DNA from: Sabellastarte sp. h YS-2021
Taxonomy: Eukaryota; Annelida; Polychaeta; Sabellida; Sabellidae
DNA: 64,000 bases
Assembly: GCA_964017235.1 (NCBI GenBank)
Contig: OZ024940.1
Location: 4,588,001-4,652,000 of the forward strand
Direction of reading: 5' to 3'
Below are positions 10,550-23,544 of the stretch, piece by piece. The notes beneath the pieces were generated by a model. That model was not told where the DNA came from, did not search any database, and saw nothing but the letters and a program-made list of their open reading frames with translations. A program made the translations under genes and the position numbers. Positions within the stretch are counted from its first letter, which is position 1. Each line of letters starts with the position of its first letter.

Positions 10550-13500
10550 CTAGTACTGGCCGTATTTTTGTTGCTGGCCATAACCGCTGCTTCTCCCATA
10601 ACCGCCTACAAGCAGGACACAGTCATTTATAAACACGCTACAAAGCTTCACAAGATTCCACCAAATTAGGTTTTAATTGTAATACCCCAGATGTGAACTG
10701 TAGCTTGTACAAGAATCACATCTTTAAGATTTTATACAGCAACATTGTTTTATCAAACTCTAAAATTAAAATTAATGCTAGTCTTCTTTTTTTTAATAAA
10801 TATTTTATTGCCTCATTTTATATGCGTTATATGCAATACATATGCAATAAAAATAGCAGTTACAATAAAGACAATTGCAATTAAAATCAGATAAAACTTT
10901 AAACATTGTAAGTGTAATGCTAGGCCTTAGAATTATATAAAACTGATTTAACTGATGCCCAACATGATGCGTCGACGATGAAAAATATTTTTAATAGACC
11001 AATCCTTTGGAATAACTTCTGAAGATCTGAAACTCAAGTTCATACAATGTCCCTCTTCCAACTACTCTCCAGTTATTGTCACTGCAATCTGCACTTTTAA
11101 TACACCTTCTGAAACTGTGCTGGATGAACTATACATTACATCTAATTAAAGTCAGTTGTTTACATTAGTAACCATAGATGAAAATGGATCTCTGCATGTT
11201 AAAATCAACCAGTGCAAAACAAAAGGTTCAAACGAAGTTCGAGTTAAAAAAAGTGTTAATAAAAGGTATTTTTATGCAAGTCCAAACAACTAACTATATA
11301 GAAAAGTACCAGGTTAATCAAATTGTAAATGAAATGTTAAGGATTGGAGAGCTTAACTAGGAGAAATGTTTCACAAGCCAACTTGGCGTACCTCCATAGG
11401 GCCCACCTGAGTTCCTGGAATTGTAGCCACCTCCCCTCATGGCACCACCCCCATAACCACCAGAACCGTAACCTGAAAGAGTCAAAAGTAAGGCTCAGAC
11501 ACAATCACTTCAACAGCTTGGGCAGCAAGCTTCAAAGACATGAAACAATTTTAATCAAATAAGATCCATGGTTTTATTTACAGAAACTGGTAGACATGTC
11601 ATTGCTCTAATTTTACCAAAATACCATATCAAAATTTAATATTGTGGTCATGTACTACTGGTCTGGACTCCACCAACCACATTTTCAATAGAAAATCTAT
11701 ATACCTTGACCACCTCCATAACTGTCCTCATAGCCACCACCATAGCCGCCGCCACCGCTGTAACTGTCAAAGCTTCCACCACCATAGCCTGTCAAAAAAT
11801 CAACACAAAGTTAAAACACCTTCAACTTGAACCAAGGCTCGAAGATGATTAATGAGTTATTTTTTTTTCTCGGTACAGTCAATTCTAATTACTTCAAGGG
11901 CACAGTTGCAACCACAAATCTTAAAATCTCTCTAACCACAAAACCCAAAGAAACTGCCAACTTCTTACAAATAGGGATTAAATTTAAGGCTGTGACAGGT
12001 TACCAAGTTGCCCTGAAAACGGTCCGAATTCCTCGAGAAACCGAGTACAAATTGGCGAAGCGGGTAACCCCAAAAATATTAAACATAGGGCAAATCAATG
12101 AAATACTTGGCTAAACTCTATTCTGTCTGATTTCTTTAATTACTATTAGTTTTTCACGTAATTTTCCTTATGTATACAGATATTTAACATTATTTTTCGT
12201 AACGTTTTGTTTACATCATCCGCCATGTTTGCACCTCTGCTACTTCCACTGGGCGACAACCAAAACATGGTTACCCTAATTCGGATTGATTCTTTCAAGA
12301 CGAATACCCGGAGTTGTTTTTCTAATGAAATCACAGCCTTAATTAAAATTCTAGAAATTTGATATACTCACTGCCACCGCCATAACCACCTGAAATGAAA
12401 TGAAAACAGGCATTGGAGAATACCAAAAAGAACATCAGATCTTATTTATTGTTACCAAATGTTTTATTCAGATCTACCTTGATGGTTTTACTGTCAATTT
12501 TTTTTTATTTTTCAGAATTAGCAATATTATTTACCTTTAACATGATAAACATAGTGATAAACCTCAACAACCCCAGGGTATGAATACATATATTTCAATG
12601 GACCATTTAACTTCTTTGTTTTCCATTTCACTACTAATGCAACACAACCTAACTCGCATTCAAAAATGTAAAAATAGCTTACCTCTGCCACGACCGCCTC
12701 CGCGACCTAAAACAAGACACAAAATCAGGATTACATTCTGTGTACAGTTTATCTTGCAAAGCTTACATTACTTTGTGACAAGCCTTCAAACTTGCAAGTT
12801 TTAAGCATTCTCTCTGATACCATCTATAAAACTAATCAAGGTCATACTTGCCCCAGTGCATAACAGTCCAAAAGCTTTTGCAACAACCAAGCCAACCTTA
12901 TTCATCAGGGTTCCCACAGACTTTTGATAACTGGATTCAAGGTCTTTTCAAGGTCAACAACAACAATTCTCAAGGATATATTTTAAGGCACGTCCTATTT
13001 AAACCTCCCCTTCTATCCATCCGTTCCTCCCACAAAATTCTTTATTGTCGCAGGATTTTAACATAAAACCAGATGATGCAGATGCAGAAGTTGGGCAAGA
13101 ACAAATTTAAGGACTTTTCAATGATTTATTTAATTTTGACCAAATTCAAGGACTTTCAAGGCCTTGAAAATAAAGCAATTTTTTTTCCAAGGACTTTCAA
13201 GCATGTGGGAACCTTATCCATTATCCAATGCTAAATTTAAATCCAAGATTGATTGATCTTTACATTTAGTCCATGTAATATAGCGTTTCTACATGATCAG
13301 GAGCTCAAGTACTTGAAACTTTCTACTATGCAATGCAAAACTTGCTCAGAAGTAGTTCCCTTAGTGGAAAATAAGAATGTACCACTCACTCATTCCACCG
13401 CCAAAGCCTCCACCGCCCATTCCTGAAATTTCAAAGTACAAACATGATCAAATTAAATAATGAATAGACATTCAAACACATCGTGCTTGAATATTTTCAA

Positions 13501-20989: not shown

Positions 20990-23544
20990 ATGGCGACAGC
21001 TGAGAATCCCCCAAAGAGTGGACCAGCTAGTGGTGGTGCAGACGATGAAGAAGAGGAGGAATTTATCGTAGAGAAAATCATAGACATGAGAGTGAAAGGT
21101 GGAAAGAAAGAGTATTACTTAAAGTGGAAGGGATACCCAGAGTGAGTGTTATCATAATCAAAGGAAGACAGATGTATAATATTGTAACAAGTGAATGATT
21201 TGGTCCTCAATTTTTGCCCATTAGTTATTTTTACCTGGATTTGACAGGCAATAATCTTTTTACCTCCTGTGAAGAGACTGACTCTGTAGTCTTTAAACAT
21301 AAGTGAAAACCAAAGATTGGTTTTGTAATAGCATTTGGGTTGGAGTATGTAAAACAGTACCACAATTTCTCTTCCTTCTACCAAGAAGATATAAATGGAC
21401 AAGAACCTGGTAACTTCCCACATTGGTATAATATTTCTAGGACTGCCAGGAGTAGTAATTTTGAACTCATTGACACATTTTAACCTTTGCTTCACTCTTT
21501 ATTTGGTTGCAGATCAGAAAACACTTGGGAACCAGAGGAGAACTTGGACTGTCCAGATCTGATAGAGAATTTTGAATTGAATTTGAAAAAAGAAAAAGAG
21601 GAGAAAAAACGGAAAAAGAAGGCGGCAGACGAAGAGGGCGAGGGAAGTACAAAGAAGAAAAAGAAGGTCGTTGAGGTAATTACAGCTAGATGTCATACTC
21701 TCGGGCCATTTTGAGATAAGAAGGTGTCAAACACTGTAGAGCCTTGATCAGATCATTTTCAGCAGGGTAAATGGTAAATACCGTAAGAGGATTTATCAGA
21801 CAATTTTGAAGGAGGTAAATGGGAAGGCAGAAATGATTAACATAATTTGTTGGTCAGGTAGCAACTTGCCCTTACCATTGACTAACTGGTTAACTGTTTC
21901 CGGTGTATAGTATCTTTGTAGAGACAGGACATTGAGGTGAAGTGCTTCAGTGTGATACATTTTAGGTTTAAAGTTAAATTCTTGACAGTTTTAAGGATTC
22001 GCAAAGGACACTGAAATAAGAAGACAGTGAACCAGGCTTACAGTATTGGTGTTGGTCAGTGCTTTTGAAAACCTTATATCCAGTTACTATGGTTAACTGT
22101 TTTAGTCCTTACAAAAGGAAAAGTATTGCAGGACCTGTTTGTCACTTGGAGAGAAGTGAATGGTAAATACTGTGGGGCCTTTGTTGTCGGACCATTTGAA
22201 GTAGTTTTAACAGAATGCCAGCCTTTGGTGGTGGTGTAAACCACATAATAATGTTTGAATTGTTTCTCAAATTAACCGATGTTTTTCCATTTCCAGGATG
22301 AGGACAATAAGCCTCGTGGATTTGACCGTGGCCTCAATCCCGAGAGAATCATTGGCGCCACCGATTCAGGCGGAGAGCTCATGTTTCTCATGAAGTGGTA
22401 CGTATAATATATTCCAATTCTATGACCCTTGTGGTGTGATAAGGGAGATGAGAAAAACAGGCATTTTTATGCATTGTGTCTTATAGGGATGGGTTGGTAG
22501 GCCCCGTGTATCGGTATTGAAAGCGTTTTACTGAAATACAGTGATGAGATTTTACAACCAACACATCGCTTGCCAGCACATATAATGAAGGGAAGAGTTA
22601 AAGTATTAGAAACATTAGTGGTCGGACCGGTTCTGAAAATGAAAACCGGTGTCCCGGACTTTGAAACCGAACGAAATCCGGTATTTCGGAAGTGTGCAGA
22701 GATATGGTAAAAAATTTTACGCAAGCGTACATGAGCAATATTTCTCATGAGGAAATATGGATTCGCGAGATATTTTGAAGTTTGTCAACTTCATTTACCA
22801 TGAATATAAAGTAAAAATGTAAGCTGTTTCCTCAAATATAAACATTCTTTATTGTTTTGACAAAGTATTAACCAGTAGAAAGCCTAATATAATGACGTTT
22901 TCAATAACCGGTTCTTAAATATTCTTTCCGGATTTCGTCATTTCTATCTAAACGAAACGAAATGCGGTATACCGGTTTACCGTTCACACCACTAAGAAAC
23001 ATACCCCAAAACTGAAGAAATTCCAAGGTTTTATCCCCAATTACTATGCATTTGCCAATTTTACACAGTACAGATTTTGCGAGCAGATCTGCCATATCTT
23101 GGTTATGACACTTGACAGCCTCAACCTCGCTCGTCAACCCATGTAATAGAAGGAAAAATCTTTAAATAGTTGAAACAAACTACAAATTTTAAGAAATTAT
23201 ACGAGTTTATCTGATATTTTGTGCATTTTTGGGACTTTTATATTGCAATTTCATTGAGAGGAAACGTCCCATGTTTGATTGGGGTGTACTAAAAATGGAG
23301 TCCCAGAAGTGGTACGGTTTTGCATTGGCGATGGGGGGCTTAATGGTTTGATTGCATTCGTTGTACACTGGATTAATTATATCCTTTGATTTTTTTGCAC
23401 TGTAGGAAAGACTCTGATGAGGCAGATCTGGTACCCGCACGGCAGGCAAACATCCGCTGTCCGCAGATCGTCATTGCATTCTACGAGGAGCGGCTGACGT
23501 GGCATACGCACGACGACGACAAAGAGGACAAGGAGGAGAAGTAG
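20990..23544 (+). CDS. Heterochromatin protein 1 (CBX1/3/5-type), 4 coding exons
   Basis: Reads H3K9-methylated nucleosomes and builds heterochromatin. Exons 20990-21141, 21513-21675, 22297-22397 and 23406-23544 join in frame with GT/AG borders: 555 nt, 184 aa, the normal HP1 size. The chromodomain spans about residues 24-74: 'EEFIVEKI', '[10 protein letters not shown]' and '[15 protein letters not shown]'. Aromatic-cage positions are F25, W46 and Y49; Phe at the first position is as in vertebrate CBX3. The hinge is Lys-rich (about 78-104: '[12 protein letters not shown]' and 'KKKKK'). The chromoshadow domain spans about 112-172: '[12 protein letters not shown]', 'ELMFLMKWK' and '[16 protein letters not shown]', with W171 at the position used for PxVxL partners. 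The start ATG follows an acceptor-like tract and sits in AAGATGGCG, also a YY1-type core. The family is certain; the paralogue is not. Confidence 0.97.
22616..22994. mobile_element. hAT-like MITE with 8-bp TSD, HP1 intron 3
   Basis: A 379-bp element with ends TAGTGGT/ACCACTA-like and an exact 8-bp duplication 'agaaacat' at 22608-22615 and 22995-23002. It shares the right-end layout 'accggtt', 'ccggatttcgt', 'ccggttt' and the internal 'gcgtacatgagcaata' with the copy at 15,332-15,713 in the hnRNP intron. Confidence 0.85.

Follow-up and report, generated by a model that had tools for sequence, protein, structure and literature searches.

How old is the head-to-head arrangement of hnRNP A/B and HP1 genes, and what has kept the two together? 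The question is raised by a 64-kb stretch of a 31.4-Mb contig (C21:4588001-4652000, hereafter the window, numbered from its first letter), in which an hnRNP A/B gene and an HP1 gene stand adjacent and divergent, 4.04 kb apart from ATG to ATG. Vertebrates have CBX5-HNRNPA1 on the HoxC side and CBX3-HNRNPA2B1 on the HoxA side, which are alike in gene families and in divergent layout. We consider it highly probable that the pair described here corresponds, in a protostome, to the HNRNPA-CBX pair of vertebrates, with orthologous genes in an arrangement that descends from the protostome-deuterostome ancestor, lying within a neighbourhood of NFE2L and the Hox1 side of the Hox cluster.

Identity and copy number of the two genes

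Both genes could be rebuilt from the DNA as complete models. The hnRNP A/B gene, on the minus strand, runs from an ATG at 16953 to a stop ending at 10550 and encodes 306 aa in 12 coding exons, with GT-AG borders at 11 of 11 introns. It has the tandem pair of RRM stretches (RRM_1, E 1e-31 in Pfam) and the Gly-rich tail of its family; its top match in the PDB is human hnRNP A1 (E 9.7e-77), followed by A2/B1, and a segment of the tail aligns with that of human A1. The HP1 gene, on the plus strand, runs from an ATG at 20990 to a stop ending at 23544 and encodes 184 aa in four exons. Its N-terminal chromodomain (Chromo, 6.1e-24), charged hinge and C-terminal chromo-shadow domain (Chromo_shadow, 3.6e-31) are those of the CBX1/3/5 family, and human CBX5 leads its PDB matches (1.9e-58), ahead of pieces of CBX1 and CBX3. 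The gene identities given in the initial annotation are therefore confirmed by gene models, Pfam and PDB matches alike. So is its description of the genes as adjacent and divergent with none between: the coordinates are exact, and a six-frame Pfam search of the spacer (16960-20986) found no domain at E 0.1, although the HP1 exons in a control frame were detected.

Copies elsewhere were sought across the whole assembly (1.786 Gb, 647 contigs, C21 being 1.76% of the genome). At E <= 0.001 the Chromo_shadow domain has one match genome-wide, which is the window gene, with all 17 candidates scored, and no second HP1 locus was found at this threshold, a divergent one possibly being missed by a six-frame exon search. 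The chromodomain on its own (PF00385) is uninformative. With 150 of 1398 candidates scored, it gave 150 matches, many of them equal in score and resembling repeat copies, and the split chromodomain of the window was absent from the list. On one 148-kb contig (C560) a chromodomain match recurs every 9.2 kb (16 listed), a tandem array of a chromodomain-bearing unit.

The hnRNP A/B query gave 22 matches (55 candidates scored), four to the window gene and four, at 51–67% identity, to a single gene on another contig (C8:87149315-87150862); the remaining 14, at 28–47% identity, were treated as a group as other RRM proteins. The window and C8 genes are the two hnRNP A/B genes found in the genome, 64% identical over the RRMs and sharing their RRM intron positions. 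Identity to human A1 and A2B1 is 57 and 60% for the window protein and 58 and 57% for the C8 protein. In a small tree of eight sequences, which is no more than indicative, the two group together (support 62) apart from human A1/A2B1/A3/A0 (60), a placement that would fit co-orthologues. Pattern searches for HP1 in GTDB contigs (589 matches) and viral contigs (276), and for hnRNP in viral contigs (four), yielded no relatives; as these collections are prokaryotic and viral, they are uninformative on animals.

Linkage with NFE2L and Hox genes

In vertebrates the pair belongs to a wider neighbourhood. In the clone described for teleost HoxCa, the cluster is followed directly on its 3′ side by three genes, cbx5, hnrpa1 and nfe2, and HoxBb has snx11, cbx1 and nfe2l1 (PMC2080641). 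Zebrafish hnrnpa1b is flanked by cbx5 and nfe2 (PMC13265542), the HoxA/HoxD paralogon includes HNRNPA3/HNRNPA2B1 and NFE2L2/NFE2L3 (PMC3196546), and in hagfish and lamprey Cbx and Hnrnpa have been used as Hox-syntenic markers (PMC10927551). In amphioxus, Hox scaffolds are in conserved synteny with the CBX3/CBX5 region, as judged from fragmented scaffolds (PMC4077772). Because the neighbourhoods of the vertebrate pairs contain such genes, four classes of neighbour were tried here: NFE2L, Hox, COPZ and SNX10/11-type PX genes. COPZ and SNX10 are counted among the genes of the Hox paralogon.

A cap'n'collar (CNC) query had a sole match at C21:4817180-4817353 on the minus strand (E 4.8e-5, six candidates). 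The locus is made up of three separate frames (CNC, basic-zipper and C-terminal), including ...QLIKDIRRRGKNKV and VAAQNCRKRKMEV..., which when joined match NRF2 (1.5e-24) and NF-E2 p45 (1e-21) in the PDB ahead of BACH1 (1.8e-14). This NFE2L-type gene lies ~0.2 Mb beyond HP1, a proximity that a single locus would reach by chance with a probability of ~2e-4. Basic-zipper genes on two further contigs (C4 and C5) were considered as NFE2L and rejected, both being Maf by eye.

An Antennapedia homeodomain query gave 50 matches, 11 of them on C21, where nine form one run (12.93-14.09 Mb) entirely on the minus strand. In order these resemble Hox1, Hox2, Hox3, Hox4, Hox5, Lox5, two of Lox2/Lox4/Antp type, and Post2, names which we assign from sequence signatures (Lox5 with KLTGP). 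By these signatures the Hox set looks lophotrochozoan, and the host looks lophotrochozoan since Lox5-, Lox2/4- and Post2-type genes lie on this contig; the same genes uphold the earlier placement of the DNA outside vertebrates. The pair lies beyond the Hox1 (3′) end of the cluster, as in teleost HoxCa, and shares its contig at a distance of 8.3 Mb, whereas in vertebrates the cluster is adjacent.

Both companions of the HNRNPA-CBX linkage, an NFE2-class gene nearby and Hox genes on the same contig, are thus found here, with NFE2L in a different order. Other differences from the vertebrate pairs concern HP1, with one locus found here and three genes in vertebrates, and the spacer, which is 4.0 kb with repeats here and ~0.4 kb within a CpG island there. 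Of the Hox paralogon members (NFE2L, HNRNPA, CBX, SNX11, COPZ), HP1, hnRNP A/B and NFE2L are on the Hox contig, and unlike in the paralogon neither a COPZ-type nor an SNX10/11-type gene was found on C21. The C21 gene with a PX domain was rejected as SNX10/11, being SNX4-like by eye with a weak SNX7 match in the PDB.

Age of the linkage

Under uniform placement of two loci in 1.786 Gb, the probability that an hnRNP A/B gene falls no more than 4.04 kb from HP1, in divergent orientation, is ~5e-6; counted by gene adjacency, with a gene number of ~30,000 assumed, it is ~1e-4 or less. The proximity of NFE2L and the sharing of a contig with Hox genes (0.018) add to this, even allowing for the four classes tried, and chance is a poor explanation of the linkage. 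We therefore hold an independent juxtaposition in this lineage to be most improbable, even with a single genome examined and with Drosophila not known to have the pair. The odds of an artefact, whether a misjoin in the assembly or contaminating vertebrate DNA, appear negligible from the assembled sequence: the hnRNP protein is 57–60% identical to human A1/A2B1, the spacer bears the genome's own repeats, and the contig extends over 31.4 Mb and carries Hox genes of lophotrochozoan type.

Several observations weigh against descent of the pair from a bilaterian ancestor. One non-vertebrate genome was examined. The NFE2L-type gene is on the HP1 side, while in teleosts it follows hnrpa1; local order was therefore not kept, and the order within the block has changed. 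None of the 11 genome matches to the COPZ-type domain (PF01217) is on C21, and one of the 12 PX matches is, with no SNX10/11-type gene seen on that contig. A search with PF03131 returned two matches, both Maf, and missed the CNC gene, from which it follows that six-frame exon searches can overlook split-exon loci. Finally, the hnRNP tree has weak support (62 and 60), and the C8 copy of hnRNP A/B does not adjoin HP1.

With these points set against the chance estimates, common descent still appears highly probable; we infer it from the two genes, their layout, the single chromo-shadow locus, the NFE2L-type gene and the Hox-bearing contig, all of which are observed. The deep age proposed in the initial annotation is strengthened by the NFE2L and Hox linkage. 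Its more specific claim, that the linkage is older than the vertebrate genome duplications, is supported, though this was already implied by the presence of the pair in two ohnologous vertebrate regions; what is most likely new is the occurrence of the pair in a protostome, deeper than the date before the two rounds of duplication. No protostome report of the pair was recognised among the open-licence papers listed by literature searches, and the pair may figure in the extensive microsynteny lists of Irimia 2012 and Simakov 2013.

The spacer and its start signals

Up to 1000 of the 4036 spacer bases match repeats, or 880 without 19453-19572. The element at 17950-18117 has a tRNA-like head and was judged by eye to be a short interspersed element (SINE); related copies stand at 28078-28237, 31276-31437 and 51473-51640. 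Among the candidates scored, matches listed elsewhere in the genome number 40 for 19838-20248, at 85–93% (40 of 5171), and 39 for 20253 to ~20550, at 81–90% (40 of 1726), while 19453-19572 has two listed matches (80–86%), both at one place on C2 (40 of 5171). No other match within 19001-19837 is listed, but copies of the high-copy repeat took up the places scored, and the remainder of this stretch is at most provisionally unique.

The observed/expected (o/e) CpG ratio is 0.49 over the window, 0.97 at 19001-19452, 1.18 at 19573-19837 and 1.34 at 19838-20248; it is 0.72 beside hnRNP A/B and 0.52 at 20554-20989. With a GC content of 0.33 outside repeats (0.24–0.46 in 200-bp bins), no vertebrate-style CpG island is seen in the spacer by GC and CpG o/e, and the peak at 19.84–20.25 kb was rejected as a promoter island because it is a high-copy repeat.

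Candidate start signals lie close to the hnRNP A/B gene. CACGTG, an E-box, occurs 48 bp upstream of its ATG, one of four occurrences in 64 kb; it is absent from 20 kb around the C8 paralogue, whose first exon was not located. The string at 16998-16991 resembles a TCT initiator. At the HP1 ATG stands AAGATGGCGAC, which we take to be YY1/TISU-like (TISU, translation initiator of short 5′ untranslated regions). The string AAGATGGC has eight copies on the plus strand of the window (~0.9 expected) and none on the minus strand (1.0 expected), at positions including 16725, 16781 and 20987, the last at the HP1 ATG. It is given little weight because two further copies at 2.6-2.7 kb share a repeated context and four occur in the 20 kb that surround the C8 paralogue, which is not linked to HP1; clustering of this YY1-type motif was accordingly rejected as pair-specific evidence. 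No match to the NRF-1 pattern was found anywhere in the window. Each gene has a plausible start region of its own, that of hnRNP A/B abutting its ATG, with HP1 perhaps starting some 2–4 kb away.

Features of the window

Coordinates are collected in Table 1. The segment encoded by exon 11 of hnRNP A/B is presumably the M9 or proline-tyrosine nuclear localisation signal.

Table 1. Coding exons of the pair and features of its spacer, in window coordinates
Feature	Position	Strand	Remark
hnRNP A/B coding exon 1 (MPSP)	16942..16953	-	GT donor next
hnRNP A/B exon 2, RRM1 first half	16480..16622	-	
hnRNP A/B exon 3, RRM1 second half	15951..16071	-	
hnRNP A/B exon 4, RRM2	15098..15308	-	
hnRNP A/B exon 5, RRM2 end	14046..14141	-	
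hnRNP A/B exon 6, Gly-rich	13718..13759	-	
hnRNP A/B exon 7, Gly-rich	13390..13422	-	
hnRNP A/B exon 8, RG-rich	12683..12706	-	
hnRNP A/B exon 9, 18-nt microexon	12372..12389	-	
hnRNP A/B exon 10, Gly/Tyr-rich	11705..11788	-	
hnRNP A/B exon 11, aligned to human hnRNP A1 GPMKGG...SSGPYGGG	11392..11472	-	PDB match
hnRNP A/B exon 12 and stop	10550..10605	-	
Candidate hnRNP A/B start region: E-box CACGTG (17001-17006) and TCT-initiator-like string (16998-16991)	16991..17006	-	putative
SINE-like repeat in spacer	17950..18117	+	three other window copies, ~82%
Candidate HP1 upstream promoter, CpG frequency normal	19001..19837	.	putative; single-copy status judged among 40 of 5171 scored
High-copy interspersed repeat(s)	19838..20553	.	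81–93% to listed genomic copies
AAGATGGCGAC spanning HP1 ATG, start context	20987..20997	+	
HP1 coding exon 1, chromodomain first half	20990..21141	+	
HP1 exon 2, chromodomain second half and hinge	21513..21675	+	
HP1 exon 3, chromo-shadow first part	22297..22397	+	
HP1 exon 4, chromo-shadow rest and stop	23406..23544	+	

Within the genes, the hnRNP A/B intron stretch 14632-14970 has a second copy at 42377-42726 (75% identical in self-BLAST). Each gene also has a CpG-rich intron stretch in 500-bp bins, at ~15300-15900 in hnRNP A/B (o/e 0.83–0.90) and ~22500-23000 in HP1 (o/e 1.51). Both contain CCGGTT-type motifs and are perhaps young repeats; they do not match each other in self-BLAST.

The immediate surroundings of the pair are repeat-rich. 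In the flanks (1-9992 and 23600-53599) a six-frame Pfam search found no domain at E 0.01, though genes with very short exons could escape it, and open reading frames (ORFs) of at least 75 aa in the adjoining DNA, 30 kb on the left of the window and 10 kb on its right, are repeat-like by eye. In the window Rfam found no families at the gathering threshold and ARAGORN no genes. Large ORFs of 692, 450 and 534 aa at 58377-63593 on the plus strand, with gag-like, reverse transcriptase/RNase H-like and tyrosine-recombinase-like parts, form what by eye is a DIRS-type retrotransposon, and a further gag-like fragment lies at 36195-36677 on the minus strand. Long tandem-repeat arrays occupy 52792-55257 (~262-bp period), 47838-48656 (37/74), 39696-40793 (103), 33859-34379 (104) and 5881-6661 (139), the 103- and 104-bp units appearing related by eye.

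Retention of the pair

What has held the genes together may be considered from the human pairs, CBX3/HNRNPA2B1 and CBX5/HNRNPA1, both of which have bidirectional promoters (PMC4721113). Retention by one shared bidirectional promoter or ubiquitous chromatin-opening element (UCOE), as in human HNRNPA2B1-CBX3, would agree with the high correlation of CBX3 and HNRNPA2B1 expression in the NCI-60 panel, whereas CBX5 and HNRNPA1 are not significantly correlated in the same data (PMC4721113). The human CBX5-HNRNPA1 promoter carries an E-box CACGTG with YY1 and NRF-1 sites (PMC2716511), and a CACGTG near the hnRNP ATG, AAGATGGC at 16725, 16781 and 20987, and a CpG ratio near 1 at 19.0-19.84 kb (19453-19572 excluded) would all be in keeping with it. 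However, AAGATGGC is not specific to the pair and the NRF-1 pattern is missing. Bidirectional promoters are defined by start sites <1 kb apart (PMC4721113) and UCOEs by a CpG island across both starts (PMC6842454); here the ATGs are 4.04 kb apart, against a human promoter region of 0.4 kb, with HP1 possibly having an upstream non-coding exon, and the strongest CpG stretch is a repeat. The A2UCOE (HNRNPA2B1-CBX3) has divergent genes of both families in common with the pair; in contrast to it, no CpG island or short shared promoter is visible in the sequence here. As the spacer is 4 kb long and invaded by repeats, a strictly shared core promoter is unlikely, and retention by such a promoter or UCOE we regard as doubtful. 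The suggestion in the initial annotation that shared promoter function has kept the genes together is accordingly unsupported by the sequence, given the spacer repeats, the lack of a CpG-rich island and an E-box/TCT-like start abutting the hnRNP ATG.

Passive retention, by slow rearrangement of the Hox-bearing chromosome with no selection on the pair, is a real possibility, short of being the expected outcome. The nine-hit, one-strand Hox cluster kept in order on C21 implies that large-scale gene order is conservative. Set against this, the divergent pair is intact despite repeat-rich flanks in which no other domain was found at E 0.01, repeats in the spacer itself, and an NFE2L gene on the other side at 0.2 Mb. 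We rate passive retention as no less likely than regulatory constraint. Under the latter, the most likely mode would be that two broadly expressed genes are linked by start regions lying near each other within a single open domain, and breaks between the two starts would be poorly tolerated. Taken to its full extent, the pair would be a regulatory unit next to Hox that was already present in the bilaterian ancestor and has persisted for >500 million years because opening the chromatin of one gene opens that of the other; the human UCOE would be its vertebrate form, and a heterochromatin-protein gene would sit beside its own anti-silencing promoter, possibly with autoregulation. We consider this unlikely.

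Common descent of the pair, very probable on the linkage evidence, would move the origin of the biotechnologically used UCOE locus, and of the block of Hox neighbours to which it belongs, to before the protostome-deuterostome split. Because the pair described here lacks a CpG island, it would also offer a natural comparison in which layout and CpG island, as sources of resistance to silencing, are directly testable against each other.

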